Part shown: positions 17,624-40,507 of the stretch, one piece after another | Layout: the number at the start of each line of letters is the position of its first letter | Position numbering within the stretch: the stretch's first letter is position 1 | NCBI GenBank assembly: GCA_947448795.1 | Contig: CANFOZ010000017.1 | Span: 1-46,109 of the forward strand | DNA from: Bacteroidota bacterium | Lineage (GTDB): Bacteria; Bacteroidota; Bacteroidia; AKYH767-A; JAHEYN01 | Length of the DNA stretch: 46,109 bases | Reading direction: 5' to 3' | Program-made: the position numbers and the translations under genes | Notes under the pieces: model-generated | Told to the model about the DNA's origin: nothing | The model's input: the letters and a program-made list of their open reading frames with translations, nothing else | Databases searched by the model: none

Positions 17624-17625
17624 AC

Positions 17626-17970: not shown

Positions 17971-18362
17971 ATCAGCAGCATCAATCGGAGGCACTTGTGT
18001 TTGGTCGATATCTTTTAAACGGAATTGAACCTGTTGATAGCGCCGTGGTTTTGTATGTGCAAGCCATGGAGCGTTTGGCGATAGTTCCTTCATCAGACGA
18101 ACAGCGCCTGTTGGATCGATTGCTTCTTCATCCTATGCTGCTGCCCTTGGTGGATGCAGGTTTGGCCCTTGCTAATCCGCGATCAGTGATTCGTCGGAAG
18201 CTTTTTGTATTATCTGCAATACTCGAAACACAACCTGCTCACGCTGCAGTCTATCTTCCTTATGAGCATAGCCCTGTCCAACATCTAAAAGCGATATTCA
18301 GTGCGGTCTTCGCTGGTCTTCGAGCTGCTTTCGGATTTATCCTTGTAAAGCTGATAGCATGA
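17967..18362 (+). CDS. Unknown 131-aa protein in the GT2-DUF2304-GMC cassette
   Basis: I do not recognise it. It begins MNQQHQSEALVFGRYLLNG, is mainly helical with many Leu and Ala (VVLYVQAMERLAIVPSSDEQRLLDRLLLHP), has a middle LANPRSVIRRKLFVLSAILE, and ends with a hydrophobic segment (about 110-131) that could attach it to the membrane. It overlaps both neighbours by 4 nt (ATGA on each side), so it is translationally coupled to DUF2304 and to the GMC oxidoreductase. The tight coupling suggests a small partner subunit of the oxidoreductase, comparable to the small subunits some GMC dehydrogenases have. That is inference. There is no Tat motif. Confidence 0.75.
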   Translation: MNQQHQSEALVFGRYLLNGIEPVDSAVVLYVQAMERLAIVPSSDEQRLLDRLLLHPMLLPLVDAGLALANPRSVIRRKLFVLSAILETQPAHAAVYLPYEHSPVQHLKAIFSAVFAGLRAAFGFILVKLIA

Positions 18363-20856: not shown

Positions 20857-22617
20857 TTAGGCCTTGAGTGGATCCAAACTTTTTTCGTCACCCGGTTTGG
20901 CCACCACATAATTACCCATCACAAGATAATCCATATCTGCTCGCTCGAAGCTATCAATAGCGTCGTATGGTGAGCAAACGATGGGTTCTCCCTTGATGTT
21001 AAAAGACGTGTTGATGAGCACAGAGTAGCCTGTTTCTTTTTTGAATGCGGTAAGCAAAGCATGCATCTCTGGGTTCTCTTCCTTGTTAACGGTTTGTATT
21101 CGAACAGAATTGTCAACATGGGTTATGCCAGGCAGTTTTCCAAGCATTTCGGGCTTCACATTGTACACCATGAGCATGAATGGATTTGGGAAGTCCGAGT
21201 CAAAATACAATCCACAGTCTTCTTCGAGCACGATAGCAGCAAACGGTCTGAATCCTTCACGAAACTTCACACGAGCATTCAGCGTGTCTTTCATTGTCTC
21301 GATTGTCGGACTGGCTATGATGCTACGGTTGCCGAGGGCGCGTGGACCGAATTCGAGTTTGCCTTGGAACCATCCGAGGATTTTTCCTTCGGCAAGTTTT
21401 TTAGCGGCGAACTCATAGTTTAGGGGCGACTGCAGATATGGAAGGGTATGTTTCTTTAGCTCAGTCTCGTATTCGTTGGTGTTGTAACTTGGACCGTAGA
21501 AAGCCGTTTTCATAACAAACTTGCGTTTGCGATTGAGTATAGCATGGTTTAGGTACAAGGCGCTGCCGATAGTTGTTCCGCTATCGCCAGCTGCGGGTTG
21601 TATATAAATATTTTTAAAGAGGCCCGACTTAGCAATAAGTCCGTTGGCAACGCTGTTTAAGGCAACGCCCCCTGCCATACAAAGGTTTTCAGAGTTGGTT
21701 TTCTTTTTAAGGTAGGCCGCTGCATGAAGAAAGAAATCCTCAATGATGTGTTGCGCTGCTGCTGCTACATTAAGTTCATGCTCTGTCCAATCTTTCCCTT
21801 CTGTTTTCGAAGGACCAAAAAGATTTTCGAATTTCTTTGTCACACCGGTTTTGCGCGTATAGTGGTAGCAGAAGTAACTCATGTCGAGACGAAACCCGCC
21901 ATCGGATGTGAACGTGATGAGTTTCTTCATCATTTCGTATTCGGGGGTGTCGGGATTGCCATACGATGCAAGGCCCATTAATTTTCCTGGACCAGAAATA
22001 AGCTTGAAGCCCAGATGTCTAGATATCGCTTGGTAAAAAGCGCCGATAGAGTGCGGTGTTTCAACAGTCGCGAGTTTATTGATTTGATTTCCTCGTCCAT
22101 GTGCAAGCATGCAGGTGGTCCATTCGCCAGCGCCATCTACAGTAAAGATTGCGGCATCTTCGTGTTCGGATGAAAAGAACGAGCTAGCAGCATGGCAGAG
22201 GTGATGTTCGAGAAGGTGGAACTTGAACTTTGGTTTCTTGCTTTCAGGAAACAAGCGTTCTAGTGTTTGCGGCAGTTTACGCATATCACCTAGGTAGTTT
22301 AGCATTCCCAAGTTTTCTTCTACCGTAAAACTTTTCTGCTCCATCAAAAGTTGTGGCAGTTTATCCCAATACTTAAGCATGAATACGGGAATCTTTGAAT
22401 ACGAAATAGACGGTTTCCAAAAAAAGGTGACATGGTCAATATCACTCAGTTTAAGGTTGCCGTATTTTAAACACTCGGCGATGCCCATGACTGGAATCCT
22501 GCCATCGTGCTTTTTACGATTTAATCGTTCTTCTTCGACAGCGAATACTACTTCGTCGTCAATGATAAGCGCCGCAGCCGAGTCGTGTCCGAAACAGTTG
22601 AATCCTAATATATTCAT
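20857..22617 (-). CDS. Carbamoyltransferase (NodU/CmcH/TobZ family)
   Basis: 586 aa, usual for the family. It transfers a carbamoyl group from carbamoyl phosphate (through carbamoyl-adenylate) to a hydroxyl, often of a sugar. Seen: the start ILGFNCFGHDSAAALI, EEERLNRKKHDGRIP, the metal-binding EHHLCHAASS (H138-H142) and FTVDGAGEW (D161) of the Kae1-like domain, LCMAGGVALNSVANG, and the C-terminal-domain signature GWFQGKLEFGPRALGNRSI and LINTSFNIKGEPIVCSP. Last gene of the long minus-strand block, 22 nt after the TMTC-like gene. It probably decorates the glycan made by this locus. Confidence 0.95.
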   Translation of the reverse strand: MNILGFNCFGHDSAAALIIDDEVVFAVEEERLNRKKHDGRIPVMGIAECLKYGNLKLSDIDHVTFFWKPSISYSKIPVFMLKYWDKLPQLLMEQKSFTVEENLGMLNYLGDMRKLPQTLERLFPESKKPKFKFHLLEHHLCHAASSFFSSEHEDAAIFTVDGAGEWTTCMLAHGRGNQINKLATVETPHSIGAFYQAISRHLGFKLISGPGKLMGLASYGNPDTPEYEMMKKLITFTSDGGFRLDMSYFCYHYTRKTGVTKKFENLFGPSKTEGKDWTEHELNVAAAAQHIIEDFFLHAAAYLKKKTNSENLCMAGGVALNSVANGLIAKSGLFKNIYIQPAAGDSGTTIGSALYLNHAILNRKRKFVMKTAFYGPSYNTNEYETELKKHTLPYLQSPLNYEFAAKKLAEGKILGWFQGKLEFGPRALGNRSIIASPTIETMKDTLNARVKFREGFRPFAAIVLEEDCGLYFDSDFPNPFMLMVYNVKPEMLGKLPGITHVDNSVRIQTVNKEENPEMHALLTAFKKETGYSVLINTSFNIKGEPIVCSPYDAIDSFERADMDYLVMGNYVVAKPGDEKSLDPLKA

Positions 22618-22639: not shown

Positions 22640-24697
22640 TTAATTGCCTTGTAATCCTTTTTTTGATACCTCTAGATTGCCTTTCAGTTGGCGATGGTCG
22701 GGGTTGTGCTTTAAGCCGGTTTCGCATGCCGTTATGGCTTCATTCCACTTGTGAAGCTCGTTGTATGAGCAGCAGATATTGTTGTATGCTGCATCCCAAT
22801 TTGGTTTCAGTAGCAAGGCTTGTTCACACATTTTTATACAGTCCTCGTAGCGACGGGCATTGTAATACTGCAGACTTAGATTAAGATAGGCTTCAGGAGT
22901 GTGTGCAGTATTTACAAGCTTCTCAGCGGCTTCAAGAGGAGATTGAAGTCCACCGGGTGTGGCTAATAATTCATTCATCAGGTTCTGTGAAGAAATATGA
23001 CCTGGGGCCAACTGAAGTGCTTGCTGCGCCATTCCTAATGCCTCTTGATAACGACCGCAGTTTTTTAGGTAATTACCATAAAAGTAATAACTCTCCGGGT
23101 TGTTGGCATCGAGTGCAATGGATTGTTTGAAATGCACTTCAGCCTCGGCTTTGTTGCCCATGGCGTTTTTCAATATGCCTAAGTTGGTTTGTAGGTAAGA
23201 GTAGTTAGGAACATAAACAAGGGCGCGGTTGAAATAGTTTAGTGCTTCCTGATATTCTCCTTTACGCATTTTTGCTAAGCCGTAGTTCATTAGTCCACGT
23301 CCGTTTTGTGGGCTTTTTATAGTTACATCGTACCATAAACCATCTTCGTTGTTCCACACTTTGTTGCGTTGATAGGTTCCGTAACAATGCGCAGCGATGA
23401 GCAAACCGCCGAGCATTAGAACTGCAGCACGAGTGCTTGAAGATTGCATAATTTTGTGTTCTTTGTCGGTCAAAAAAAGTGCTATGGACCAAGTCACCGC
23501 CAGCATCAATCCAACGAATGGGAAAAAGATACGGTGGTCGTTGAGTACCTCTGCCAGTGGCATAAAGCTAGAAGTCGGTGCCAAAGCTAAAAGAAACCAA
23601 ATAAGACCAAAGCTGATGGGACGGGTTCGTGCATCATTCGAGGTTCTTACAATAGTATAAATCATACCGATTAGGAAGGCTGTGCCCACGATGACGCGGT
23701 CGTCAAAGATGTTGCGAATAGGAGTCCAGTCTGTGTCTGCGCTTAGACCTGTTGGAAGGAAGAACGTCAAAAAGTAGTGAACAATTACAAAGGTCTGTGT
23801 TTGCAGGTAGGTGAGGCGGTCGACACCGCCACCGGTCCACAAAGGAGGCAGCATGTGTATGATGAAATACACCAATGCGATGCAAATAGCAATAACAGGC
23901 AAAACACGCACAAAGGTATGACTAAGTGCTGAGCGGTTTTTTGATGAAAATAATTCACCAATAGACATCTTCTTTTCAAAGAAAAGGATGTAGAAAAACA
24001 ACAATGGCGCAAAGATCATAGCGGGTTCTTTTACGAACATGCCGATGATGATCGGTATAAGATAAAGGTAGTATTTACGAGATATAGCGGAATACATATA
24101 CATCGCGAAGCCAATGATTACGGCTACTGTGGATAGCGAATCGGTACGCGAGATGATGTAATTAATTGTTTCCGCGTTCGATGTAAGGACACCATACCAG
24201 AGCGCACCGAACAGCGCGAAATATTTGTTCCAGTGGTGTTTGTGGGCGAGGTTGAAAATCTTGTAGAAAATAAAATACATCAGCACGAGCTGAAGTAAGT
24301 ACCAGATGAAAGTGGAGAGGTGGAAATAAAACGTTGAATTGAATCCATCACCACTCAATTTTTGACCAATCCAATAGTCGATAGCCAAGGTTGTTGTGGT
24401 CATCGGTCGATATGCTTGGTTTGCTGGCAATGAGCTACCGGTGGTTACATCTTTAAAGAAACGCGGGATATTGCCTATGTCACGAATATAGAGGTTGTTA
24501 CAAATGGTATGCGTATCGTCGAAGTGGAACTCGTTTTTGAAGTGGTTGCTATACGCCAATGTAACCACAGCAAGCATCAGAAAGATGTATTTCATCATTC
24601 CGAGGTGTGTTTTTAATTCTTCTTTTTGCTCTTCACTTTTGTTATTAGAAAACAAGCGGATGATGTTTTCAGCAAAGATGGATGTGTTCTTTTCCAT
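22640..24697 (-). CDS. TMTC-like polytopic membrane protein with C-terminal TPR repeats
   Basis: 685 aa. After a short cytoplasmic N-terminus, about ten membrane helices span 33-450. The first extracytoplasmic loop has NEFHFDDTHTICNN (D60-D61), the acidic motif of GT-C enzymes, followed by FFKDVTTGSS. TPR repeats fill about 460-685 (MNYGLAKMRKGEYQEALNYFNRAL, TNLGILKNAMGNKAEAEVHF, AYNNICCSYNELHKWNEAI). The architecture matches eukaryotic TMTC O-mannosyltransferases and their bacterial relatives. Probable lipid-P-sugar-dependent glycosyltransferase acting outside the cytoplasmic membrane. The two nt between this start and the upstream transketolase stop indicate an operon. Its TPR tail is similar to those of two other proteins in the locus. 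Confidence 0.85.
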   Translation of the reverse strand: MEKNTSIFAENIIRLFSNNKSEEQKEELKTHLGMMKYIFLMLAVVTLAYSNHFKNEFHFDDTHTICNNLYIRDIGNIPRFFKDVTTGSSLPANQAYRPMTTTTLAIDYWIGQKLSGDGFNSTFYFHLSTFIWYLLQLVLMYFIFYKIFNLAHKHHWNKYFALFGALWYGVLTSNAETINYIISRTDSLSTVAVIIGFAMYMYSAISRKYYLYLIPIIIGMFVKEPAMIFAPLLFFYILFFEKKMSIGELFSSKNRSALSHTFVRVLPVIAICIALVYFIIHMLPPLWTGGGVDRLTYLQTQTFVIVHYFLTFFLPTGLSADTDWTPIRNIFDDRVIVGTAFLIGMIYTIVRTSNDARTRPISFGLIWFLLALAPTSSFMPLAEVLNDHRIFFPFVGLMLAVTWSIALFLTDKEHKIMQSSSTRAAVLMLGGLLIAAHCYGTYQRNKVWNNEDGLWYDVTIKSPQNGRGLMNYGLAKMRKGEYQEALNYFNRALVYVPNYSYLQTNLGILKNAMGNKAEAEVHFKQSIALDANNPESYYFYGNYLKNCGRYQEALGMAQQALQLAPGHISSQNLMNELLATPGGLQSPLEAAEKLVNTAHTPEAYLNLSLQYYNARRYEDCIKMCEQALLLKPNWDAAYNNICCSYNELHKWNEAITACETGLKHNPDHRQLKGNLEVSKKGLQGN

Positions 24698-24699
24698 GA

Positions 24700-25608
24700 T
24701 TAAGCGGAGATAATGAGTTTGGCGATGGATTGAGTATCAAGTCCAGATTGTTTTTGATGAAAAGCTTGGTCGCCATAGATCTGACCTGGATACCCCTGGG
24801 CATGCAATGTTGTAATGCTATCAGTAGCAATATTTAGCTTCGCAAAATGATAGAGGAATTGTTGCGCAAGACCACCTTGTGCTACGTGTTCTTCTAAAAG
24901 TATAATCCGCTTGCTCTGTTTAATCGAATCAATGAGTTGCTGCGGAATGCTGCGGAATGGAAAACGGATAGCCGTAAAAAGGTCAATAGGGTCGGCTTTT
25001 TCATGCTGTTGCATTGCGGCTAGCACATTGTTAACCAAGGGCCCCATGGCAATAACAGTATGTTGAGCGCTTGTGCTTTTGTGCACGCATCGAAAAGCAT
25101 CGAAAAGCAGTTGCTCTGATGGCGCTTGTTTCCCTAAGCCTAGTCTAAGATAGGCAGGTCTTGACTCATTAACAATGGCGTGCATGGATGTTTCAAGATC
25201 CTCAATAAAGGCAGGTACATGACACGACATGTTTTGAAGCGGGGCAAGGCAGGCAATGTCTTCCAACGCATGATGCGAGGACCCCATGATGCCATACCCA
25301 TACCCACCTCCATTACCCACCAAAAAAACAGGTAGGTTATGCAAACAAACATCGTTTCGCGTTTGCTCTAAGCATCGATACACCACAAAGGGAGCGATGC
25401 TGTAGCAAAACACTTTGTAGCCACTGCGCGCCATGCCGGCTGCCATGCCCACCATGTTCTGTTCGGCCACGCCGGCATTGATGAAACGGTCACCCATCGA
25501 TTGCTGCAGGCTTTCAAGGGCGTTGTAGCCCAAGTCACCCGTCAGGAAAACGATGGATTCGTCTTTGGCTGCGTGTTGCTGAATGAGCTCCGCAAATTTT
25601 TTCCGCAT
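24700..25608 (-). CDS. Transketolase-like protein, C-terminal half (pyrimidine-binding subunit)
   Basis: 302 aa. Contains the TPP pyrimidine-binding domain with the catalytic-type glutamate in RFINAGVAEQNMVGMAAGMA (E49) and the C-terminal transketolase domain (IILLEEHVAQGGLAQQFLYHFA, AQGYPGQIYGD). It pairs with the N-terminal half encoded at 29607-30413; in most split transketolases the two genes are adjacent, but here four genes lie between them. Probably moves a two-carbon ketol unit for a special sugar, not central metabolism (inference from context). Two 10-bp tandem duplications lie inside the gene (24941-24960, 25087-25106), and the frame is intact. Confidence 0.9.
   Translation of the reverse strand: MRKKFAELIQQHAAKDESIVFLTGDLGYNALESLQQSMGDRFINAGVAEQNMVGMAAGMARSGYKVFCYSIAPFVVYRCLEQTRNDVCLHNLPVFLVGNGGGYGYGIMGSSHHALEDIACLAPLQNMSCHVPAFIEDLETSMHAIVNESRPAYLRLGLGKQAPSEQLLFDAFRCVHKSTSAQHTVIAMGPLVNNVLAAMQQHEKADPIDLFTAIRFPFRSIPQQLIDSIKQSKRIILLEEHVAQGGLAQQFLYHFAKLNIATDSITTLHAQGYPGQIYGDQAFHQKQSGLDTQSIAKLIISA
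24941..24960. repeat. 10-bp tandem duplication inside transketolase C-half
   Basis: TGCGGAATGC followed by TGCGGAATGG, nine of ten bases identical. It is in coding sequence, and the unit length is not a multiple of three. A second such duplication lies about 140 bp away. Confidence 0.7.
25087..25106. repeat. 10-bp perfect tandem duplication inside transketolase C-half
   Basis: GCATCGAAAA occurs twice in direct succession, followed by GCAG. A copy-number change by slippage would shift the reading frame. Confidence 0.75.
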
Positions 25609-25642: not shown

Positions 25643-26590
25643 TTACTTACCAGAGATCTTCTTGCAAACGTTCACGAAGTCGAAATCTTGGATATACGAC
25701 TTGGTACGCTGATAGATCTCATCCAATTGTTGTTTGCTTAGTTCTTTTCCAGTTTGGATGTTTACTTCTTCAGTTGGTATACGAACGGTACCCCATGGAT
25801 ACACTTCTTTCAATACTTCACCGTTCCAGCTTGGTACAGCTAAGGTTTTGCTGCTGCTAATTCCAGCTTTTTTAAGCACCGCAGAGAGCGTGCCGATTTT
25901 ATCCTTGATGATATCTTCATAGCGCACGATAAGGAAGTTTTTAGGATACTTCTCGGCGTATAATTTAGCAAAATACTGTGAGTTTACCCAGCCTGTCATG
26001 TAGTGAGCGATGGATAGTGGAACTGCGCGTTTGCTGGTGTCTCCGTATGCAGAGAAGGGGTTTCTCACAACGTGAAGAACATACCCATTGCCTTTGTAAT
26101 CTTCGATGATTTTATCGCCGTCAACACCGATGATTGGGCTATAACCCACATAGGCTTTTTCTTTCCCTGTGCGTTTGTAGTTTTTCCAAGCTTCGAAAGT
26201 TGCGCGGAAGAAGGCTTCCATAGCGTTTCCACGCGTAAGCGGTTTGCCTTTTAAAAATTTTACAAATTCGTTTTTACGGTTTTTGTCTGTCATTTGAAAG
26301 TCCGCGTCGCGAAACTTGCTTACGTATGGTGTTTTGCTGCGCACCTTGCCTTCCTCGTCAATAATCAGCTCGTACATCTCTTCCGCTGTCGCTGTGCTTG
26401 GGAATACAGGCCAGCGATATTTTAATGGATACATTGAACTCATAAAATCGTTCACGTATTTTGAACCGGGCTGCGACTCAAAAGGGTAAACAAAAAGTTC
26501 CGGATGCCCATCGAGTAAGCGATGTGTGGTGTTGCCGCCATTCTCATACATGGCCGAAAGCATGATAAATTTGAAGGTCTTTGGTGTCAT
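25643..26590 (-). CDS. Sulfotransferase-like protein with unusual PAPS loop
   Basis: 315 aa. The middle segment YVLHVVRNPFSAYGDTSKRAV (about 173-193) matches the 3'-phosphate-binding region of PAPS sulfotransferases (vRNP......S), and NFLIVRYEDI is the usual following strand. The 5' loop reads MYENGGNTTHRLLDGHPEL (14-32): the LLDGHPE part is typical, but the usual [RK]SGTT is GGNTT. It may transfer sulfate to a sugar or could be a relative with altered activity. It has 34 nt to the transketolase C-half downstream, and a weak promoter-like box upstream. Confidence 0.8.
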   Translation of the reverse strand: MTPKTFKFIMLSAMYENGGNTTHRLLDGHPELFVYPFESQPGSKYVNDFMSSMYPLKYRWPVFPSTATAEEMYELIIDEEGKVRSKTPYVSKFRDADFQMTDKNRKNEFVKFLKGKPLTRGNAMEAFFRATFEAWKNYKRTGKEKAYVGYSPIIGVDGDKIIEDYKGNGYVLHVVRNPFSAYGDTSKRAVPLSIAHYMTGWVNSQYFAKLYAEKYPKNFLIVRYEDIIKDKIGTLSAVLKKAGISSSKTLAVPSWNGEVLKEVYPWGTVRIPTEEVNIQTGKELSKQQLDEIYQRTKSYIQDFDFVNVCKKISGK

Positions 26591-26666: not shown

Positions 26667-27842
26667 CTAGTGGGTGGCGCTGAAGTAAAGATTGTTGATG
26701 CTATCGCTATCGCCGTCGATCGAGGTGTGCGGAAAACCACTGCTCACATCACTCGGCAGCCATTCCACCGCAAAAATTTGGTTGCCGAATGGAAAGGTGA
26801 TTGAACCGACTACTTTCTCACTTTTTGTATCGAAGGCAACAATTCCGCAACGGGGTATTTCATGGGTGATGCCCGGAGCGTAGACTTTGTATTTTTGAAT
26901 GATGCGCGAAACTCCGATAAAGGCAATGTCCTCGTGAAAGCAAAGACCGCGCGTCCAGCTTTGTAAGTTCAGCAGCGGTTTGAAGTTTCCTTTTTCTATG
27001 TAGCCGAATTCACCGGCCCCACTGTTATTCACCCACAAGCGTCCTTTGTGTAGTTTTGCGGAATGCGGTCGTGTGAGACCACGGGCTGCAACAGAGCGTG
27101 TTTTACCGGAGAAGATCACGCCTGTGTTTTTGACAGGAAACTGCAAGTGTCCGGGCTTGTATCTCCTGATCTTTTCAGAGGATGCGGTGAAGTAGGATGC
27201 TTGCAGTGTTCGGCCGGCTGCAATGGAGTTCAATTGTAAATGATTAGCGGACAGGTCAGGCTCGCCATTCTTCTTGGTGGTAGCTTCCGGAAACCAACAC
27301 AGCGTTTCTGTTTCAGGGCTGCTTAAATCAGCTTTTATAATGCCGTTTATGCCAACTGAATTGGCATATAATCGATTGCCAATGTAGGCCAAATCATGGA
27401 AGTAATAGCTACCCGGGTAGTATTTCTCGCGGACAGGCATCAGGGGCCGGTGGCCTGCAAAGGTCGAGCCGCTGAGTTTTCGTTCAGTGCATCCGGCCAT
27501 GGGCTTTAGTTCCACCAATTTATTGGGGTTGCGTGTGCAAGCGATGACGATGCTGTTTGTTTTCCGGTGAATGGCAATGCCGGTGGGGTGTGGCATGGGT
27601 AGAAAGCTTTGATACAGCTGATTGCCTCGCACGCTGAGCGCAAGCATCAGGTTTTCATACTCCCTGGAAACGAGCAAGGTGATCTTGTGCTCTTTGAGTA
27701 CGTCCTTGAATCTGCCTTCGATACGATACTCCAAGGATCTCGCATCCAATCCACCTTGCTCCGGCTTGAACGAAATTACTTCGAGCGGGTCTCGGATCGT
27801 TTTCGCTTGCTTTTCAATGATTTTATCAAGTCCTTTCATCAT
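26667..27842 (-). CDS. DUF4915 / TIGR03032-like predicted beta-propeller protein
   Basis: The likely start is the ATG overlapping the preceding GT2 stop (ATGA at 27842); the ORF-track start lies inside the GT2 gene. This gives 391 aa. Seen: LLVSREYENLMLALS, FLPMPHPTGIAIHRKTNSIVIACTRNPNKL, YFHDLAYIGNRLYANSVGINGI, GLTRPHSAKLHKGRLWVNNSGAGEFGYIE, and ITFPFGNQIFAVEWLP, a repeating strand-rich pattern with short His/Pro-containing turns. The family is widespread near sulfotransferases and glycan genes, but no function is established that I know of. No signal peptide. Confidence 0.8.
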   Translation of the reverse strand: MMKGLDKIIEKQAKTIRDPLEVISFKPEQGGLDARSLEYRIEGRFKDVLKEHKITLLVSREYENLMLALSVRGNQLYQSFLPMPHPTGIAIHRKTNSIVIACTRNPNKLVELKPMAGCTERKLSGSTFAGHRPLMPVREKYYPGSYYFHDLAYIGNRLYANSVGINGIIKADLSSPETETLCWFPEATTKKNGEPDLSANHLQLNSIAAGRTLQASYFTASSEKIRRYKPGHLQFPVKNTGVIFSGKTRSVAARGLTRPHSAKLHKGRLWVNNSGAGEFGYIEKGNFKPLLNLQSWTRGLCFHEDIAFIGVSRIIQKYKVYAPGITHEIPRCGIVAFDTKSEKVVGSITFPFGNQIFAVEWLPSDVSSGFPHTSIDGDSDSINNLYFSATH

Positions 27843-28540
27843 CGTGCATGCTTTGCTTCTGCATCCAGGTTTCTTTTTAGCCGCCAAAGCCCAGTATACA
27901 TTTTAATGGCCGACTTGAGTTTGGTTGTAGATTGACCTTCAATACGCTTTGGTGACACAATCAGAATCTCAATAATCTGAATATTTTTACGATATATCCG
28001 AGCCATAATCTCTGCATCGATGAGATCGCCTTCCTCTGTAATATTGAGGTCTTTCAAAAACTGTGCGGGTATGACTTTGGGAGTGCCATTCACGTCCCAA
28101 AGCGGAGTTCCGAGTAGCAAGCGGTTTTCGTAATTATAGAGGATGGATCCCATTTTTCTGCGCAAGCTCTCGCGCGCAACACGTGTCGTTTTGAGTACCA
28201 CCTGTGAGTTTGCGCTAGAATACTTGAGCACAAGGATAAGCTGCTCGGGTATGGTTCTTGCCGAGTTTGTGTAGCAAACAATCGCTCCGCGTGCTTCGGA
28301 GAGGCCGAATTTTACAGCCCTGCCCCAGCCACCTTTTTCAAGGTTGAAAACACGCACGTTTGGATTCTTGGCAGCCATTTTTTGAGCGGTTTCAAACGAC
28401 TTGTCGCGAGAGCCGTTGACAATTAAAAGCAGCTCCCAAGAATCTCCAGTTTCAGTGAGTTTTTCGGTATATTGGGTATACAAAAAATCAATCTGCTTTT
28501 CTTGATTGTAAATAGGAAGAATGACCGAGTATTTTATCAT
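27839..28540 (-). CDS. Family 2 glycosyltransferase-like protein with altered DxD
   Basis: I choose the ATG of MIKYSVILPIYNQEKQID; the longer ORF-track start overlaps the SDR gene and adds no family sequence. This gives 233 aa. GT2 features: ILPIYNQE, LLIVNGSRDKS, and GGWGRAVKFGLSEARGAIVCY. At the place of DxD it reads YTNSARTIPEQL (91-93 TNS), so the usual metal-binding acids are missing. The rest of the fold looks intact and ends without membrane helices. It is either a subfamily that uses another metal or nucleotide geometry, or a non-catalytic partner. It overlaps the DUF4915 gene by ATGA. Confidence 0.85.
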   Translation of the reverse strand: MIKYSVILPIYNQEKQIDFLYTQYTEKLTETGDSWELLLIVNGSRDKSFETAQKMAAKNPNVRVFNLEKGGWGRAVKFGLSEARGAIVCYTNSARTIPEQLILVLKYSSANSQVVLKTTRVARESLRRKMGSILYNYENRLLLGTPLWDVNGTPKVIPAQFLKDLNITEEGDLIDAEIMARIYRKNIQIIEILIVSPKRIEGQSTTKLKSAIKMYTGLWRLKRNLDAEAKHAR

Positions 28541-28575
28541 GCTGAGTTGTATATGCCTTAAAAAGCTCTTCTTTG

Positions 28576-29610
28576 TTAGATCCGTTCTCCAGACCAGTTC
28601 CAAAAGGCAGTATCAAAACCAACCTCTTGTTGCCATTTAGCCACATTTAGCATGCCTTCTTCTAAGCCTATGGTGGTTGACCAGCCGAATGTGCTTTTTG
28701 CTTTTGACGGGTTGGAATACCAATCCACGACATCCCATTTTCGATCGGGCATATTGCCAAACTCAGGCGGGTTGGCTATCTTGAACAAATCACAGGTGAG
28801 TTTAGAGATTTGTCCGATGGTGGTTTTAACACCTGTGCCTATATTGAAAACCTCGCCAAAGAGCGATGGTTTCAGGGCGATGGCTGCCTGGATGAATGCA
28901 GCGGAGATATCGGTTACATGGATGAAATCACGAGATATTTCAGGATTTACCAAAGGCGGTAGTTTCCCATGCCGGGCCTTGGCTATAAGAACGGGCATGA
29001 GTCTGTCCGGTTCTTCCCACGGTCCATAAGCTGAATACAAACGCAAGTTGAGCACAGGCATTTGTTCGATACGTCCGAAATATTTGATGGCCGAGTGCAC
29101 GGCTGTTTTTGAAACCGCGTAATGGCTGTTCGGAATGAGTTCTTCGTCCTCGAAAGGGCCTGCACTGTTAAGTCCGTATTCGGAGCTGGAGCCAGCATGG
29201 ATAAAGGCGTCGAACCCAGTTTCACGCAAGGCCTCTAGCATATCCACGGTGGCAATGAAATTAGTTTTGTAAATCTTACGATACTCTCGCTGTTTGGAGT
29301 AAGCCCCATACGCAGCCAAGTTGAAAATCGTGCGCGGTTTATATTGACGAATAAGTTCACGCAATTCCTCGGGTTGCGTGATGTCACAGGCCAGTAGGTT
29401 TTCCGGAGGGGTGTGCGTGGCAATGAAGCGCCAATTGTTTTTTGGATCTTGGGAGATGCCAAACACATCTTTTCTGTATAACAGAAGCGAATGCATCAAG
29501 TTCAGCCCAACGAAGCCGCCCGCACCAAAGATGAAAATTGGTCCTTTTAATGCCTTGACCTGGTATGCCACTTCAGACGGTAGCACAAAGATGGATGCGT
29601 GCTGAGTCAT
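28576..29610 (-). CDS. NAD-dependent epimerase/dehydratase (extended SDR), intact
   Basis: 344 aa. Rossmann motif GPIFIFGAGGFVGLN (GxxGxxG at 29-35), NLAAYGAYSKQ, catalytic serine region HAGSSSEYG (141-143), and the Y164/K168 pair in HYAVSKTAVH. C-terminal SRDFIHVTDISAAFI and VFNIGTGVKTTIGQI are typical of sugar-nucleotide SDRs. All catalytic residues are present. The N-terminus (IFVLPSEVAYQVKALKGP) is similar to that of the fusion protein at 36387, indicating paralogy. It starts inside the transketolase N-half stop (ATGA). Probable sugar-nucleotide 4-epimerase or dehydratase; the substrate is unknown. Confidence 0.92.
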   Translation of the reverse strand: MTQHASIFVLPSEVAYQVKALKGPIFIFGAGGFVGLNLMHSLLLYRKDVFGISQDPKNNWRFIATHTPPENLLACDITQPEELRELIRQYKPRTIFNLAAYGAYSKQREYRKIYKTNFIATVDMLEALRETGFDAFIHAGSSSEYGLNSAGPFEDEELIPNSHYAVSKTAVHSAIKYFGRIEQMPVLNLRLYSAYGPWEEPDRLMPVLIAKARHGKLPPLVNPEISRDFIHVTDISAAFIQAAIALKPSLFGEVFNIGTGVKTTIGQISKLTCDLFKIANPPEFGNMPDRKWDVVDWYSNPSKAKSTFGWSTTIGLEEGMLNVAKWQQEVGFDTAFWNWSGERI

Positions 29611-30413
29611 TTGGCTGTCGAGTAGTTTTTTTTGACTTCTTCCATGGCTTCTTCAAACTGCTCTTTGTTCATCGGATTATAGTGCCACTCAAGGCGATTT
29701 TGCATAAAGGAAACACCTTTTCCTTTGATCGTATGTGCGATGATTACCTTGGGCTTGCCGTTCTTCTCTTTTTTAAGTTTGGCTATCAAAGCAGTGTTTG
29801 TCTCCACGTCGTGACCATCTGTTTCATGCACTTCGAAGCCGAGTGAAAGCCACTGTTCAGGAGAACATGTATCCCCCAGTACATCGGCAGTGGTGCCGAA
29901 CCCTTGTAGTTGGTTTTTGTCTATGATGACGAGCAGATTGTCAAGTTTTTGTTGTCTGGCAAAATGCGCTGCTTCCCAGGTAGTACCCTCGTTGGTTTCG
30001 CCGTCTGACATCAGAACCTGGACGATGGCGTCGTTGTTTTTCATTTTTTCTGCTTTGGCAACACCCACACCGAAAGGGAGTCCATGGCCAAGTGACCCTG
30101 TAGCCAAAGGAACGGCTTTGAAACGATTCGGCGCCGGATGCGCGGTCAAGGAAGTACCGTTTTTGTAATAGGTGGCCATCTCCTCATCGCTGAGTAAGCC
30201 TTTTTCCATCATGCTTACATACAAGGAGACGGCGGCATGACCTTTGGACAGGATGAATGTATCCGCTGCACCTGTATTGTGAATAAAGGATGCGATGAGA
30301 AGATCGATACAACTGAGCGAGCAAGCGATGTGGCCAGCATTGGCTGCGTTGTAAGTTTCTAAAATGCGAAGTCGCAGCGCACCAGGTAAGCTGATAGATT
30401 CGATGTTCTTCAT
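29607..30413 (-). CDS. Transketolase-like protein, N-terminal half (pyrophosphate-binding subunit)
   Basis: 268 aa. ILSKGHAAVSLY (K57, H59) and PLATGSLGHGLPFGVGVAKA are standard. The Mg-TPP motif reads MSDGETNEGTTWEAAHFARQQKLDNLLVIIDKNQLQ (136-171), a typical split-transketolase form with SDG in place of GDG. Its partner half is at 24700-25608, separated by four genes. It overlaps the upstream TPR membrane gene and the downstream SDR gene by 4 nt each, so it is deeply embedded in the operon. Presumably dimerises with the C-half to make a 2-carbon-extended or branched sugar intermediate (inference). Confidence 0.93.
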   Translation of the reverse strand: MKNIESISLPGALRLRILETYNAANAGHIACSLSCIDLLIASFIHNTGAADTFILSKGHAAVSLYVSMMEKGLLSDEEMATYYKNGTSLTAHPAPNRFKAVPLATGSLGHGLPFGVGVAKAEKMKNNDAIVQVLMSDGETNEGTTWEAAHFARQQKLDNLLVIIDKNQLQGFGTTADVLGDTCSPEQWLSLGFEVHETDGHDVETNTALIAKLKKEKNGKPKVIIAHTIKGKGVSFMQNRLEWHYNPMNKEQFEEAMEEVKKNYSTAK

Positions 30414-33274
30414 TTGACTGCGTTTTTTTTCTTGGCCTCGGAGTCGGCAAGGTTGTTCTTTGCAAGTTCAAAGTTAGGATTTAATTCAACAGCTTTTTTG
30501 AGTGCTGAGATGGCCGCATCGAAATCGCCTAGCGCATTGTAAGCGATGCCCATATTATTCAAGGCAATGGTGTTTTTTGGGTCGCGAGCGAGCAAGACCT
30601 GCGATAGCTTGATGGTGCCATTGTAATTACCAACGAGGTAAAGGTCTACGCTTTTTTGGAGTAATTCGGCATCTCCTCGTTCCGCATATAATTTGGCTTC
30701 CTCTTTTTTCAAGCGTTTGGCTGAAGCCACATTGTTTTTTGCAAGATCGAAGTCGGATTGCAAATCCAGGGCTTTTTGACAGTAATGGATGTAATCGTCC
30801 AAGATCATCAATACGCCAAACTCATAGCCTAGGTTGTTGTAAGCCAACGAATACAAGCTGTCCACTGCGATGGCTTTGCGGTAATAGTTGATGGCATCGA
30901 CGCTTTTTTGATGATTACTGTACCATACGCCGACATTCACAAAATTCTCTTTGGTTGGCTTCGCATTGGCTATGGCGATCAATTGATCCGGACCGTCGCT
31001 GGCAGGCGCTGCTTGATTGGATGCGGCCGAATTTGATGCAAATCCCGGAATGGCTTGGTTGAACTCTTGCAGTCGATCGTTGAAGTTGGCTTTGGGTACG
31101 AAGTGCACGATTCTCCAATCAGCATTTTCAAAGCTGGCATTGGCTTGAAATGCGAAGGATAACCAAGGTTCTAAAAAGGGATGATTGTCTCTTTTACAAA
31201 TGATGAGCCACCCGCCGGTCGGGAATTGTTCAATGAACCGGGAGATGTAAGTTGCAATGCGTTCATGGGGAAGCGAATTCAGCAAGGTCATTTGATGCAC
31301 GGGCAACCAGTAGATAGGCTTTCTGTCTTGACCAGTGATACGGGATTGCAAAAACAAGATATCGGTTGCGCAGGCCACCGGTTCGGTGGCTTGGATGCCC
31401 GCTTGATTTATCAGCGCATCCAAACTGCCCGAACTGGTTCCATAGTTGCCCGACATGTTTTGATCGTTGGAAGGGATGATGTCTTCAATGTTTGAAACAT
31501 ATCCTGTTTTTAAACCGCTTATGAACCGGTCGATGCCTCCGGTATCGTCATACACGGATATCATAGTAACAGCGAAAACAGGTAGCAAAGCGATGCGGTA
31601 ACTCGAAAAACCTGCCCGATTGTTTTTCAAAAGATGCATTGTTGCCGCACAAAACAAGAGTACGAGTGGAATCAGACTAGTCAGATTGGCAGGATGACTT
31701 CTGCCGATGTAATTACTCGTAACGGCGAACAAACCATAAAACAGAGCAGCCGCTATGGCAAGCTCCCGCGTTCGTTTAAATGACATGAAGCGAGTGGCGA
31801 CGACCGCGATCAGAAGCAAGCAGAAAAGCATCCCAATAATTGGGCCTTGGGGATCAATCAGCATGCTGCCTAACCCTTCTTTGACGGCAATGGAATGTTC
31901 GTAATAGCAGCGCCAATCTGGAAGATGACCGATTCTGAACAAGTAAAGTAAATCAATGAGCAGCATGGTGATCAGGAGCATGGCTACCGGTAAGCCCAAT
32001 CTAAATAGCATCGTATTGATTGCAGGGCTGAAAGGCCCCGACATCGTATTCGGCGATGTCGCCACCGCCGGTTCGTGTTTTGGTTCTAATTTGAATGACG
32101 CATAAGCAATGACGAGAAGATATACCGACCAAATGGAGAAGGTGAAAAATCCGCTTTCCACAGCCCATAAAAAGGAGCAGAGATTGATGAAGCTGCCTAT
32201 AAGGATATGCCTACGCAATCGCGAAATTCCGTCATGGCGGTAGCTGTAAATTAAATAAGCAACCATGACAAATACCCAAATGTAGCGCATGGAGCCGCTG
32301 CTTGGAAAGCTTTGTGGGCCTGCAAAGCCGTCGGTGAGTCCCCAACCAGGCAGCAGAAATACCGCACCGGCAGATACAAGGACTGCAAGGGCGTATGCCG
32401 CCCATCCCCGAAATGAGGTTTGGATTAATTTGTAGAGTATAAAAGCAGAAACGCTCAGAACGATGGTATTCAAAACATATAAAGACTGCCAAGCACTTTG
32501 AAAGGGCATACTTGCAAGGACTAGTTCGGATAAAAAGCCATATGACGAGGGCACGTTCCACAATAAATGACCGCCTTGCCGAAGCATCTCAGCCGGTGTA
32601 ATGTATAATCCGCAGTGATGAATAGTAGTTGGCATTCGCATATCCACTTTGTATGATGCGAAAACGAAAAAAAGAAAGGCCACTGCATCTTTACCAATTC
32701 GAATCAATCTTGGCGGTGCATAATTTTCTACACTTCCTTGATTTTCAGTAAATGCAAGAAAGCAAAGTAGTAGAATAAGCAATGTCGTAATAATCGTCTG
32801 CATCGATTGGGTGGCGAGGTCATAGGGGTTTACCCACCAAATGAAAGTATACGATAGCGTCCATGCGACAGTGCCGGAAATCAGGATCGGTAGGTGTTGT
32901 TGCCATGCATGCGAAATGCCGGTTCGGCTGGTTTGTATACCAAGCCAAACAAATTGGGCAATCACAGGGATTGCAATCAATAACGCGTTGTTGGGATGTG
33001 CATAATAATACAATGAAATCAGGATAGCAAAGCCAACCATTGGAACCTTAAGTTGAGCAACCGGTAGTCTCTTGTTGGCTAGTACAGCTAATATCAAAGC
33101 GGCAGGAAGAAGCAATCCGAAACCAAGATACTGGGTCCACTCGGATGATTCTTGGCCAGTGTCTACAAGTAGTCGAATCATTAATAAAACAGCAAAGCCC
33201 AAGCCTACACCCCAGAGGTACTCCAGCTGCATATAACCTGATCGCTTCGCGTTGATTTTTGAGAACAAACTCAT
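30410..33274 (-). CDS. Large polytopic membrane protein with C-terminal TPR repeats
   Basis: 954 aa. About 15 hydrophobic helices fill 15-560, an extracytoplasmic-looking domain follows (about 570-750; YWLPVHQMTLLNSLPHERIATYI), then TPR repeats from about 775 (NVGVWYSNHQKSVDAINYYRKAI, AYNNLGYEFGVL, ALNNMGIAYNALGDFDAAISALKKAV). No specific enzyme family is evident to me, and the many helices plus large loop suggest a GT-C-like glycosyltransferase or an O-antigen-ligase-like protein. No clear DD motif near the N-terminus. The TPR tail is related to those of the TMTC-like and GT39-like proteins of the locus. Five nt separate it from the acyltransferase gene, and it overlaps the transketolase N-half by 4 nt. 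Confidence 0.8.
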   Translation of the reverse strand: MSLFSKINAKRSGYMQLEYLWGVGLGFAVLLMIRLLVDTGQESSEWTQYLGFGLLLPAALILAVLANKRLPVAQLKVPMVGFAILISLYYYAHPNNALLIAIPVIAQFVWLGIQTSRTGISHAWQQHLPILISGTVAWTLSYTFIWWVNPYDLATQSMQTIITTLLILLLCFLAFTENQGSVENYAPPRLIRIGKDAVAFLFFVFASYKVDMRMPTTIHHCGLYITPAEMLRQGGHLLWNVPSSYGFLSELVLASMPFQSAWQSLYVLNTIVLSVSAFILYKLIQTSFRGWAAYALAVLVSAGAVFLLPGWGLTDGFAGPQSFPSSGSMRYIWVFVMVAYLIYSYRHDGISRLRRHILIGSFINLCSFLWAVESGFFTFSIWSVYLLVIAYASFKLEPKHEPAVATSPNTMSGPFSPAINTMLFRLGLPVAMLLITMLLIDLLYLFRIGHLPDWRCYYEHSIAVKEGLGSMLIDPQGPIIGMLFCLLLIAVVATRFMSFKRTRELAIAAALFYGLFAVTSNYIGRSHPANLTSLIPLVLLFCAATMHLLKNNRAGFSSYRIALLPVFAVTMISVYDDTGGIDRFISGLKTGYVSNIEDIIPSNDQNMSGNYGTSSGSLDALINQAGIQATEPVACATDILFLQSRITGQDRKPIYWLPVHQMTLLNSLPHERIATYISRFIEQFPTGGWLIICKRDNHPFLEPWLSFAFQANASFENADWRIVHFVPKANFNDRLQEFNQAIPGFASNSAASNQAAPASDGPDQLIAIANAKPTKENFVNVGVWYSNHQKSVDAINYYRKAIAVDSLYSLAYNNLGYEFGVLMILDDYIHYCQKALDLQSDFDLAKNNVASAKRLKKEEAKLYAERGDAELLQKSVDLYLVGNYNGTIKLSQVLLARDPKNTIALNNMGIAYNALGDFDAAISALKKAVELNPNFELAKNNLADSEAKKKNAVK

Positions 33275-36386: not shown

Positions 36387-38285
36387 ATGGAATTCAATAT
36401 CTTTACACCGATGGAATTGAACAACCAGCTGAAAAATCAACTTGATCGTTTGAAGGGTCCCATATTTATCTTGGGGGCTGAAAGTCACTTGGGTGCACAC
36501 GTTTTGCATGCAATAAGTTCAGTACGTAGCGATTGTTTCGCCCTTGTGGATGCGGATGCAAATCCATGGCGTCTCCATGCCATGGGTATCCGTGCACAAT
36601 CCTTTCAGTCCATCGAATGGACGCCGGAGTCTATCCAAAAGGTGTTCAAGACCTTCCAGCCCAAAGTCGTGTTTGACTTCACGGCTTTTTATGGCGATCT
36701 CCGCGTGCCGGATTACAAGAATCAAATCGCACTTTTGATACAAGTGCTCTCCTGCTGCGCACCCGGAACCGCATACCTGCATGCTGCAGCAGCTGTTGCA
36801 GCACCGGCAGATGTGATTTTTAAACCAGCTGCCAATCAGCAAGCGCATGCTTTTGCGCTGAAGATGTTTGCTGAAGTACTCAGGCATGCCGCCACCAGTG
36901 ATGGTATTCAAGCAAGCGGTTTCGTGTTTCCTGAAATCTTTGGCGAATGGCAATATCCCTCCCATGATTTGCCGCAGCTTTTAAATTGCCTTCGCCAACA
37001 AAGACCAGTGCCCGATGCCCTTTTCTCTGCATCGAGATGCTTCATAGACATTCAAACTGTATTTCAAGAATTGTTGCAAGCCGCATTGTCTAACAGTGCA
37101 AACGGTCAAACCATTGATTTGTCCAAAGGCCGCTCCTGGAGCTTCGCAGATCTGGCTGAATGGCTTAGTAATACGCGCGCATTTGCAGACGCTTCGCTCG
37201 CAACCGAAGATAGAGCCACCCTGATTGGATTGCGCAGAGTTTTAGATTGGCAGTCCACTATCGATTACTCAAATCTCACCCTTGGTGGAGTAGAGGAGCG
37301 CGCCTCCAAATCTAAAATCTCCGCTATCATCGCATGCTACAAAGATGCCCAGGCCATTCCGGTGATGTACGATCGGCTAGTCCACGTGTTTAGCGAATTG
37401 GAAACAGACTACGAAATTATTTTTGTCAACGATTGCTCACCGGATAATACCGAAGATGTGCTTGCACCCATCTGTGCCTCCGATCCGAAAGTGATTGCCA
37501 TCACGCATTCGCGTAATTTTGGCTCCCAAGCGGCTTTTCAAAGCGGTATGGAGATTTCAACAGGTGATGCGGTAGTTCTGATGGACGGCGACTTGCAAGA
37601 TCCGCCGGAAATGATTCCGCGTTTCTATAAACGCTGGAAGGAAGGCTTTGAAGTAGTTTACGGCAGACGCATCAAAAGACAGATGAATCCGTTCATGGGT
37701 GCGTTGTACAAACTCTTTTATCGCATTTTTAGAAAACTCTCTTACGTGGAAATGCCAGTTGATGCAGGCGATTTCTCCATGATTGATAGAAAGGTGGTGC
37801 GCGAATTGATCAACTTGCCTGAAACAGAGCAATTCATTCGTGGTCTCCGCGCTTGGGTTGGCTTTCGTCAAACCGGTGAGGATTATGTTCGGCCGGAGCG
37901 CATGTTCGGGGTTTCCACGAACAATTGGATCCGAAATATCGGTTGGGCTAAAAAAGCGATATTCTCGTTTAGTTTCGTACCCTTGGAAGCCATGTCTTAC
38001 CTCGGTTTTATGCTTACAGCTACCTCCTTCCTCGCCATCATTGGCCAAATTATCTCTCGTTTTTTGTTCCCCAGTGTTCCCCAGGGTGTTACCACGATCA
38101 TCGTGCTTATCCTCTTTTTTGGCGGTGTTCAACTTTTAGCCATTTCATTAATTGGAGAGTATATCTCTAAAATTTTTGATGAAACAAAAAAGAGACCCAA
38201 ATTTATCCGCAGAAAGGTCATCAAAGGTGGTAAACTGTTCGACACCCCCGAGTCTATCGATTCCCTGATTGACCATGCAAAATGA
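36387..38285 (+). CDS. Fusion: catalytically degenerate SDR domain + GtrB/DPM1-like family 2 glycosyltransferase
   Basis: 632 aa. Residues 1-300 are an SDR-type domain clearly related to the intact SDR at 28576-29610 (LKGPIFILGAESHLG versus LKGPIFIFGAGGFVG). Key residues are gone: GxxGxxG reads GAESHLG (30-36), the serine region reads HAAAAVAA (132-139), and YxxxK reads AFALK (155-159). From about 308 a GT2 domain begins (SAIIACYKDAQAIPVMYD), with FVNDCSPDNTE, NFGSQAAFQSGM, and DxD in LMDGDLQDPPEM (398-400), then two membrane helices (about 535-555, 570-592), as in GtrB. This probably makes a polyprenyl-phosphate sugar; the SDR part may be a regulatory or docking module (inference). The next gene overlaps by ATGA. 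Confidence 0.88.
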   Translation: MEFNIFTPMELNNQLKNQLDRLKGPIFILGAESHLGAHVLHAISSVRSDCFALVDADANPWRLHAMGIRAQSFQSIEWTPESIQKVFKTFQPKVVFDFTAFYGDLRVPDYKNQIALLIQVLSCCAPGTAYLHAAAAVAAPADVIFKPAANQQAHAFALKMFAEVLRHAATSDGIQASGFVFPEIFGEWQYPSHDLPQLLNCLRQQRPVPDALFSASRCFIDIQTVFQELLQAALSNSANGQTIDLSKGRSWSFADLAEWLSNTRAFADASLATEDRATLIGLRRVLDWQSTIDYSNLTLGGVEERASKSKISAIIACYKDAQAIPVMYDRLVHVFSELETDYEIIFVNDCSPDNTEDVLAPICASDPKVIAITHSRNFGSQAAFQSGMEISTGDAVVLMDGDLQDPPEMIPRFYKRWKEGFEVVYGRRIKRQMNPFMGALYKLFYRIFRKLSYVEMPVDAGDFSMIDRKVVRELINLPETEQFIRGLRAWVGFRQTGEDYVRPERMFGVSTNNWIRNIGWAKKAIFSFSFVPLEAMSYLGFMLTATSFLAIIGQIISRFLFPSVPQGVTTIIVLILFFGGVQLLAISLIGEYISKIFDETKKRPKFIRRKVIKGGKLFDTPESIDSLIDHAK

Positions 38286-40507
38286 TGCTGCCGCGTCGCT
38301 TTGTATTCAATGAAACCATAAAATTAAAAGAGAACATGCAGACAATTGATTTTCGAAAATTATTCATCGGCTCAAGTATCGCTATGCTGCTGGTTATGCT
38401 ATTTTTTAGTCATGATTACGGAATTTCATGGGATGAGCAACTGCACAAAGAATACGGTGAAAAGGCATTGAACTATTACCAAACCTTTGGCAAGGATACT
38501 TCGTGCTTGCATTTCGGAAACCTATACATGTATGGGGCCTTTTTTGATATGACCGCGGCTGCACTGAACAAGATGCACCTCGGCGACGAATATGAAGTTC
38601 GCCATACACTCAGTGCCTTCTTCGGTTTCATCGCCATCCTTTGCTGTGGCTTGTTGGCCATGGAGTTGGCAGGTTGGCGTGCCGGTTTCATCGCTTTGCT
38701 GCTGCTGTTTTTTTCACCTCGTTTTTTTGGTGATTCTATGTATAACCCGAAGGACATTCCCTTCGCGGCCCTGTTTACGCTCTCGATTTATGCGATGATT
38801 CGTGTCATTAAACAATTTCCTAAACCGACTTTTCGCACCGTGCTTGGCTTGATTGTCAGCATCGCTTTAACCACGGGTATTCGCGTGGGGGGGCTGTTAT
38901 TGTTCTTCTTCTTCGGTTTGTTGCTGTTGGGTAAGGTCATAGCCACCTTGAATAAACAGGAACTGACAAGGGAAACAGTTGCTAGCTTTCGTCGAATGGC
39001 TCTCCTTTTTGTTGTCATCTGTGCTTCGGCATATCTGCTCTGTGGACTTTGCTGGCCTTTTGCACTCACCAATCCCTTGATGAATCCCTTCAGGGCCTTT
39101 CAATTATTCAGTGCATACGATTCCTTTAATTCGTATAACCTGTTTGAAGGTCGTTGGATCAATGTGTGGGAGATACCTTGGAACTATATTCCAAAATGGA
39201 TCTGGATTACCACACCAATTGGCGTGCTGTTCACCTTCCTACTCATGCCTTTGTTGCTGCTGCCGGATCTTAGAAACCGACTCCAAGTACCAGCGAACTA
39301 TCTATTGGTTATCGCTTTCATGATCGTCTTTCCTATTCTTTTTGTCATCTTCAAAAACTCCAACGTTTACGACAGTTACCGTCATTTGTATTTCGTGTAT
39401 CCACTCATCGTTGCTTGCAGCGGGGTGCTTTGGAACGCACTTCTGTCGATCGACCTAAAGCCTGTCGTTCACCGAGCACTGCTGCTGATTCTCGCTTTAG
39501 CCCTGCTCGAGCCCGCAGTTTTCATGGTCAAAAACCGTGGCTTGCAGCAGTTCTATTTCAGCCCGGTCATCGGCGGAAACAAAGGCGCTTTCAAGCACTA
39601 CGAGATCGACTACTACGGCACCTCCATCCGCCAAGCCGTCGAATGGATTGCGGCCAATACCGACTCAACAAAACCAAATCCAATCCGTGTTCGTAATGTC
39701 TACGGTGAACTCATCAGCGTTGAGCATTTTGTTAAAAAATACAAACATCTTCAACTCGTCTTTCAGCCCGATCTCTCGCTAGACTGGGATTATTCCATCG
39801 TCTTGACTGCCGCCGCCAAACATGATTCACTACTTCTTGTTAATTGGCCTCCCCCTAATACGGTCCATGAAATCATGTCTGGTGGTACCCCTCTTTTAGC
39901 CATTGTTGCCAATGGCGCACAGGCAAATCCTGCTGCTGCCTTGGATAACATCAGGCAGCAAATCAGGTCAACCAAAGATCCTGTCCTCTTAATAAATAGC
40001 AGCTTGTCTCTTTTCAATTCAGGTGACTTTTTTGGCTCGATAGAGGCCTGCGAACGAGCCTTGCAAGTCGATCCAACAAATGTAACAGCGCTAAGCAATA
40101 TCACTGCAGCTTTAAATAACTTGAGTCTATTCGAAGAAGCAATACCCTTTGGTGAAAAGGCGGTCAAGTTAAACCCTACATTTACACTTGCTGCTGCTAA
40201 TCTTGCACTATCCAGGAAAAATAAGGATGTCAAGATAAATCCTACAATCTTGGCCAATCAATTGATTAATCTAAGTGTGGTGTATCACAATACCGGTCAA
40301 TTCGAGCGGTGCATCGATATTTGTAAAAAGAGCCTAGCCTTGGTTCCCGATAACGCCATCGCCTACAACAATATCTGCTCTTCTTTCAATGGACTTGGAC
40401 GCTATGCTGAGGCCGAAGTAGCCGGTGCGAAAGCCGTCACTTTAAGTCCAGAGCAGTCCTTATTTAAAAATAATTTAGCTTTTGCGCGTTCCAAACTTGG
40501 CAAATAA
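38282..40507 (+). CDS. GT39-like (PMT/ArnT-type) membrane glycosyltransferase with C-terminal TPR repeats
   Basis: 741 aa. The ATG overlapping the fusion-gene stop (ATGA) is chosen since this locus uses that arrangement often; MQTIDFRKLF at 38336 is the alternative. After the first helix, YGISWDEQLHKEYGE carries the acidic D51-E52 motif of GT-C enzymes. SPRFFGDSMYNPKDIPFAALFTLSIYAM and NVYDSYRHLYFVYPL are typical of GT39-like Bacteroidota proteins. About ten helices end near 430, then a soluble domain, and TPR repeats (about 560-741; NLSVVYHNTGQFERCIDICKKSL, AYNNICSSFNGLGRYAEAE). It likely takes the polyprenyl-linked sugar made by the coupled GT2 upstream. Confidence 0.87.
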   Translation: MMLPRRFVFNETIKLKENMQTIDFRKLFIGSSIAMLLVMLFFSHDYGISWDEQLHKEYGEKALNYYQTFGKDTSCLHFGNLYMYGAFFDMTAAALNKMHLGDEYEVRHTLSAFFGFIAILCCGLLAMELAGWRAGFIALLLLFFSPRFFGDSMYNPKDIPFAALFTLSIYAMIRVIKQFPKPTFRTVLGLIVSIALTTGIRVGGLLLFFFFGLLLLGKVIATLNKQELTRETVASFRRMALLFVVICASAYLLCGLCWPFALTNPLMNPFRAFQLFSAYDSFNSYNLFEGRWINVWEIPWNYIPKWIWITTPIGVLFTFLLMPLLLLPDLRNRLQVPANYLLVIAFMIVFPILFVIFKNSNVYDSYRHLYFVYPLIVACSGVLWNALLSIDLKPVVHRALLLILALALLEPAVFMVKNRGLQQFYFSPVIGGNKGAFKHYEIDYYGTSIRQAVEWIAANTDSTKPNPIRVRNVYGELISVEHFVKKYKHLQLVFQPDLSLDWDYSIVLTAAAKHDSLLLVNWPPPNTVHEIMSGGTPLLAIVANGAQANPAAALDNIRQQIRSTKDPVLLINSSLSLFNSGDFFGSIEACERALQVDPTNVTALSNITAALNNLSLFEEAIPFGEKAVKLNPTFTLAAANLALSRKNKDVKINPTILANQLINLSVVYHNTGQFERCIDICKKSLALVPDNAIAYNNICSSFNGLGRYAEAEVAGAKAVTLSPEQSLFKNNLAFARSKLGK

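Follow-up and report, generated by a model that had tools for sequence, protein, structure and literature searches.

We found that the protein encoded at 36387-38285 (+) joins a degenerate extended-SDR domain (residues ~1-305) to an intact GtrB/ArnC-like polyprenyl-phosphate GT2 (residues 309-609). It is located in the window, i.e. the whole stretch of 46,109 nucleotides that we analysed, which is a contig of a draft assembly. The SDR domain has lost catalytic residues that relatives with the same fusion keep, and it has diverged far more than the GT2 half. We consider it probable that the domain is a pseudoenzyme that was made redundant by a stand-alone SDR encoded in the same window and that persists as a folded portion of the GT2 polypeptide.

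A damaged SDR domain

The SDR domain comprises residues 1-310, up to the start of the GT2 (36387-37316, +). Residues 1-305 had no Pfam match when the whole fusion was scanned at 0.01; scanned separately, the domain matched Pfam Epimerase with 23.2 bits (cutoff 20.9). Alignments with intact SDR relatives, to which the domain is 22-26% identical, revealed how the motifs have changed. The nucleotide loop at residues 30-36 (36474-36494) is GAESHLG where relatives have GASGFIG. The preliminary description had considered this loop lost, but only the middle glycine of GxxGxxG has been replaced, by serine, whereas the first and third glycines (G30 and G36) remain. Its reading of the catalytic serine region as lost was correct: HAAAAVAA at residues 132-139 (36780-36803) takes the place of HAGSSSEYGLN, with HAGSSSEYG of the relatives corresponding to HAAAA followed by a gap and the remaining loop absent. 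The former YxxxK site, YAVSK in relatives, is HAFALK (residues 154-159, 36846-36863). Here, the tyrosine is lost in either alignment, but its change to alanine and the retention of Lys159, as originally described, depend on one gap. With a one-residue gap, Tyr corresponds to Ala155 and Lys159 is in register; without the gap, Tyr corresponds to His154 and Lys to Leu158. A further loss had been overlooked: the C-terminal substrate-binding lobe (residues 248-280, 37128-37226) is shortened by about 30 residues compared to relatives (the GSMxxRKWDLxxWYGN region). Overall, 27 of the 63 SDR columns that are invariant in 21 intact homologues survive in the window and 36 are lost. Elements still present are the LKGPIFI lead-in, the WQ linker helix, the SR.F arginine and, in the nucleotide loop, two of the three glycines. 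The domain lacks the Ser/Thr plus YxxxK of an active extended SDR (the Ser loop and Tyr are gone and the Lys is alignment-dependent) as well as a complete GxxGxxG, and is predicted from these motifs to be catalytically inactive.

The domain had also been described as a paralogue of the stand-alone SDR at 28576-29610 (-). The two are homologous (24% identity, pairwise E 1e-16) and have LKGPIFI in common; however, the nearest relatives of the fused domain are found in other fusions, whose SDR domains reach 108 bits, compared to 69 bits for the stand-alone SDR. We thus rejected a recent copy of the window's stand-alone SDR as its origin.

An intact glycosyltransferase and its neighbour

The GT2 half (37317-38285, +) matches Pfam Glycos_transf_2 with 108 bits and phrog_841 'GtrB-like' with 277 bits, and among PDB sequences it is matched by GtrB sll0501 along its entire length (213.6 bits) and also by ArnC (126.5 bits). 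The motif DGDLQDPPE is intact, with DGD at residues 400-402 (37584-37592). Together with the GT2 fold and two hydrophobic C-terminal helices, this agrees with the earlier assignment of a GT2 that retains DxD and two membrane helices, and it is what is expected of a GtrB/ArnC-like GT2. Scores were under the NCBIfam equivalog cutoffs, so that no specific sugar can be assigned. From what is known of the family and from the neighbouring genes, the GT2 half would load a sugar onto undecaprenyl phosphate.

As stated in the preliminary description, the reading frame is open over all 632 codons. An independent ATG start of the GT2 was rejected, as no in-frame ATG from which it could be translated alone lies between codons 160 and 327. 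Since the GT2 is translated through the SDR domain and such an ATG is missing, the open frame alone proves little.

The downstream gene (38282-40507, +) has a 4-bp overlap with the fusion and encodes a probable GT-C-type membrane glycosyltransferase with TPRs. Its match to PMT_2 is weak (16.6 bits, under the cutoff of 26.1); a 44% identical relative is encoded beside the fusion of G160, and PMT_2 proteins occur near the fusions of G069 and G241. The gene product is probably the user of the lipid-linked sugar. Two more large membrane proteins that have TPRs at the C-terminus are encoded in this region, at 22640-24697 (-) and 30410-33274 (-); all three are probable GT-C enzymes or glycan-handling proteins.

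The fusion in other genomes

Profile and protein searches over 1387 genome slots, in which some genomes were searched more than once and for which three candidates per genome were scored in the larger searches, detected the full-length SDR-GT2 fusion in about 70 further genomes, which all belong to the class of the window genome. Searches of viral contigs gave nothing useful. The window protein belongs to this family by full-length orthology of the GT2, by the shared junction and by the SDR lead-in. To count active-site residues, we aligned the window protein and 48 fusion relatives. All 48 retain Tyr and Lys, and 47 retain Ser/Thr, the sole exception being G241 with Asn. The SDR half of the SDR-GT2 fusion thus normally has its active site intact; the loss of this site is specific to the window's lineage, with a milder parallel in G241.

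These counts bear on the proposal of the preliminary description that the SDR domain serves as a sensor or scaffold for the GT2, which had been made dependent on the residues being lost in all such fusions. They are kept in the relatives, and only the loss of Ser recurs, once, in G241. As homologues with the same fusion keep Ser, Tyr and Lys, the origin of the fusion did not lie in sensing or scaffolding, and we rejected a general sensor fusion.

The fused SDR of G241 has FKG instead of FIG in addition to the change of Ser to Asn, and its substrate lobe is altered, but it retains Tyr and Lys. Of the 80 columns that are invariant in intact fusions, 14 differ in G241, compared to 0-6 in the others, save the deep-branching G379. 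Judged by Tyr, Lys and the length of its branch (see below), this domain may still be active. One fusion (L068 in G164) was left out of the counts because of an early in-frame stop in its otherwise motif-complete SDR half. Its GT2 half is intact, and the stop is either an assembly error or marks an early pseudogene.

Unequal divergence of the two halves

When comparing the window protein to five relatives, we observed 23-26% identity in the SDR half and 66-71% in the GT2 half, whereas the five relatives among themselves have 54-72% and 64-82% identity, respectively. Maximum-likelihood trees of the two halves reveal the same asymmetry. The window branch has 3.57 substitutions per site in the SDR tree, compared to 0.08-0.80 for the other fusions, and 0.25 in the GT2 tree, compared to 0.02-0.58. 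Dividing the mean SDR distance by the mean GT2 distance gives a ratio of 5.74 in the case of the window, whereas the remaining fusions have ratios of 1.17-1.68. The SDR branch of G241 is not unusually long. A local point mutation or a recent frameshift was rejected as the cause of the loss, as the divergence spans the whole SDR half.

Two operon types and the stand-alone SDR

Most fusions adjoin genes for the N-half and the C-half of a split transketolase, an arrangement that we call type A. For instance, the N-half was found in 30/30 and the C-half in 27/30 cases in one set of relatives with short flanks; at the fusion of G066, neither half adjoins in the 18 kb that were read. The window fusion has no adjoining transketolase pair of its own. 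The window's pair is instead found in a second operon (type B), beside the stand-alone SDR.

The type B operon runs from 30413 down to 24700 on the reverse strand of the window, and this conserved six-gene operon also occurs in G123, G356 and G241. Its order is transketolase N-half (29607-30413), stand-alone SDR (28576-29610), a GT2-fold protein (27839-28603), a DUF4915/TIGR03032 protein (26667-27887), a sulfotransferase-like protein whose Pfam matches are below cutoff (25643-26590) and transketolase C-half (24700-25608), all on (-). The stand-alone SDR, which had been described as intact, indeed has FGAGGFVG, HAGSSSEYG and YAVSK and is the presumed substitute for the dead domain. The GT2-fold protein has TNSAR in place of DxD in all four type B operons; its other strongly conserved motifs are EKGGWGRAVK and LWDVNGTPK, and it may represent a distinct GT2 family that is metal-independent or non-catalytic. 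Elsewhere in the window, a carbamoyltransferase gene (20857-22617, -) beside glycan genes suggests a carbamoylated sugar or product, and at 16895-18362 (+) a GT2 gene is followed by genes for a DUF2304 protein and a small ORF product that has no Pfam match.

Within the window genome, the stand-alone SDR is the sole other homologue of the fused SDR that we found. The sole other transketolase N-half is 35% identical and encoded on another contig, and there is no second pair of the same type. Among the genomes found, the fusion and the type B operon occur together only in the window and in G241, and the fused SDR is damaged in both, compared to none of 47 other fusions examined. The chance of such a coincidence would be 1 in 1176 if all genomes were independent; they are not, several of the genomes are incomplete, the larger searches scored only three candidates per genome, and the pattern was noticed post hoc. 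The link between damage and the stand-alone SDR thus comes from two cases and could be a coincidence. Also against a replacement by the stand-alone SDR, trees of the transketolase halves, made to date the operon swap, gave no clean split between the two operon types.

Fold retention and the fate of the domain

The window domain has the features of the extended-SDR fold, namely an Epimerase match above cutoff, the order of its secondary structures and, for a low-confidence model, its Foldseek matches. This model was obtained with AlphaFold from two aligned sequences and has a pLDDT of 46.2 and a pTM of 0.51; the confidence was equally low for an intact control (pLDDT 45.6, pTM 0.49). The first six Rossmann strands are present in order, through residue 181. 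The Foldseek matches include PglF and other sugar dehydratases or sugar-nucleotide SDRs, and also complex I chains from respirasome entries, which are taken to be the SDR-like subunit NDUFA9. A phmmer search of the SDR domain against PDB sequences gave no match.

Over 298 columns, the hydrophobicity of the window domain correlates with that of the family at r 0.62, as it does in intact relatives. At 150 columns the domain has a residue that no family member shows; there, r is 0.37, a value reached in 0 of 5000 permutations. For comparison, we let four intact genes decay neutrally in silico, with stops excluded (120 simulations). At 30% identity to the start, the simulated sequences have median best family scores of 84-120 bits (window 104-108). 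Their mean r is 0.39-0.43 overall and 0.07-0.11 at new residues, with maxima across all simulations of 0.59 and 0.27. The hydrophobic pattern of the window domain goes beyond these neutral simulations, which makes a constraint at the level of the fold likely, and the domain probably still folds. The loss of the catalytic residues is no trivial accident, as the divergence is wholesale and the fold pattern is kept.

We infer the following sugar pathway and its replacement. The ancestor would have been an extended SDR with an intact site that acted on a nucleotide sugar, or on a lipid-linked sugar, joined to a GtrB/ArnC-like GT2 and normally encoded beside a split transketolase. The SDR and the transketolase pair would build an unusual nucleotide sugar, unless the SDR acts on a lipid-linked sugar; the GT2 would load the sugar onto undecaprenyl phosphate, and the GT-C enzyme would pass it on at the far side of the membrane. 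With the type B operon present in the window's lineage and the fusion devoid of its own transketolase pair, the SDR step was presumably taken over by the stand-alone SDR. Catalytic residues and a portion of the substrate lobe would then have disappeared from the fused SDR. Selection to fold would persist, since the domain shares one polypeptide with an intact and needed GT2.

A role as sensor or scaffold is possible for the dead domain of the window, taken by itself. It might have taken on the task of a docking platform or sensor that binds the stand-alone SDR, a nucleotide or a nucleotide sugar and that channels the product to the GT2 or regulates it. The fold pattern kept beyond the neutral expectation and the retained sequence elements named above, from LKGPIFI to the two glycines of the loop, are in line with such a role. 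NDUFA9, a precedent (PMC8762328), has its complex I entries among the Foldseek matches. We nevertheless regard this recruitment as unlikely. It was not the purpose of the fusion, given the active sites of the other fusions; the shortened substrate lobe and the vanished surroundings of the sugar site argue against binding of the old ligand; and the fold constraint is already explained by membership of the GT2 polypeptide. The loss has a simpler explanation in redundancy with the stand-alone SDR. Extended SDRs usually pair. Where both operons are present, the active stand-alone SDR might dock on the dead domain as a mixed pair, forming a two-protein channel with a pseudoenzyme anchor, which we consider improbable.

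Plain decay would make the domain an unselected leftover, whose frame is open only because the GT2 shares its start. The very long SDR branch, the deletions and the 36 of 63 otherwise invariant positions lost would fit, and the missing ATG means that the open frame needs no other reason. At a similar homology score, however, the neutral simulations lose the hydrophobic pattern that the window keeps, and we judge plain decay to be quite improbable. Continued enzyme activity of the domain, with altered chemistry or through an active site that was rebuilt, is very improbable: strong fold-conserving divergence could reflect new selection, and two nucleotide-loop glycines and perhaps Lys159 remain, but neither Ser nor Tyr survives, alanines and a gap have replaced the catalytic loop, and the substrate lobe has become shorter.

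Comparison with known systems

Redundancy followed by retention as a folded part would make this protein a clean natural case in which one half of a bifunctional enzyme turned into a pseudoenzyme while the other half evolved normally. Dozens of intact relatives serve as controls, and an intact substitute is encoded next door. The analysis also exposed a recurrent SDR-GT2 fusion in a transketolase-containing glycan operon; neither the fusion family nor a transketolase pathway of such a kind was described in the literature searched. The product of such an operon could be a branched or otherwise unusual sugar.

In the ArnA/ArnC pathway of modified arabinose, too, an SDR is coupled to an ArnC-type GT2 that makes a lipid-linked sugar. 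The SDR of ArnA is fused to a formyltransferase and not to a GT2, unlike in the window fusion, and to our knowledge no split transketolase is involved in that pathway. The GT2 half resembles GtrB sll0501 (PDB 5EKE/5EKP) and ArnC (9HWJ, 8VXH) over the full length, including DxDLQDPPE and the hydrophobic C-terminal helices, whereas the solved chains of these proteins (322-363 residues) have no SDR domain.

A three-component periplasmic glycosylation system has been described that consists of a polyprenyl-phosphate-sugar synthase, a GT-C enzyme and an auxiliary SDR epimerase, where the separate SDR was proposed to act on the lipid-linked sugar (PMC11127046). Unlike in the fusion, the SDR of that system is encoded by its own gene, and the lipid-linked ribofuranose derives from a polyprenyl phosphoribose synthase.

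The sugar-nucleotide extended SDRs RmlB, GalE, MoeE5, RMD and PglF are matched by sequence by the intact fused and stand-alone relatives and by fold by the low-confidence window model. Compared to these enzymes, the window domain is devoid of the Ser loop, the Tyr, the middle Gly and part of the substrate lobe. Lastly, NDUFA9 of complex I is an SDR that has no known activity and is a structural subunit with bound NADPH (PMC8762328). Like the window domain, it is an SDR fold retained in a membrane complex without known catalysis; unlike the window domain, it is a separate subunit that still binds NADPH and belongs to a different system.
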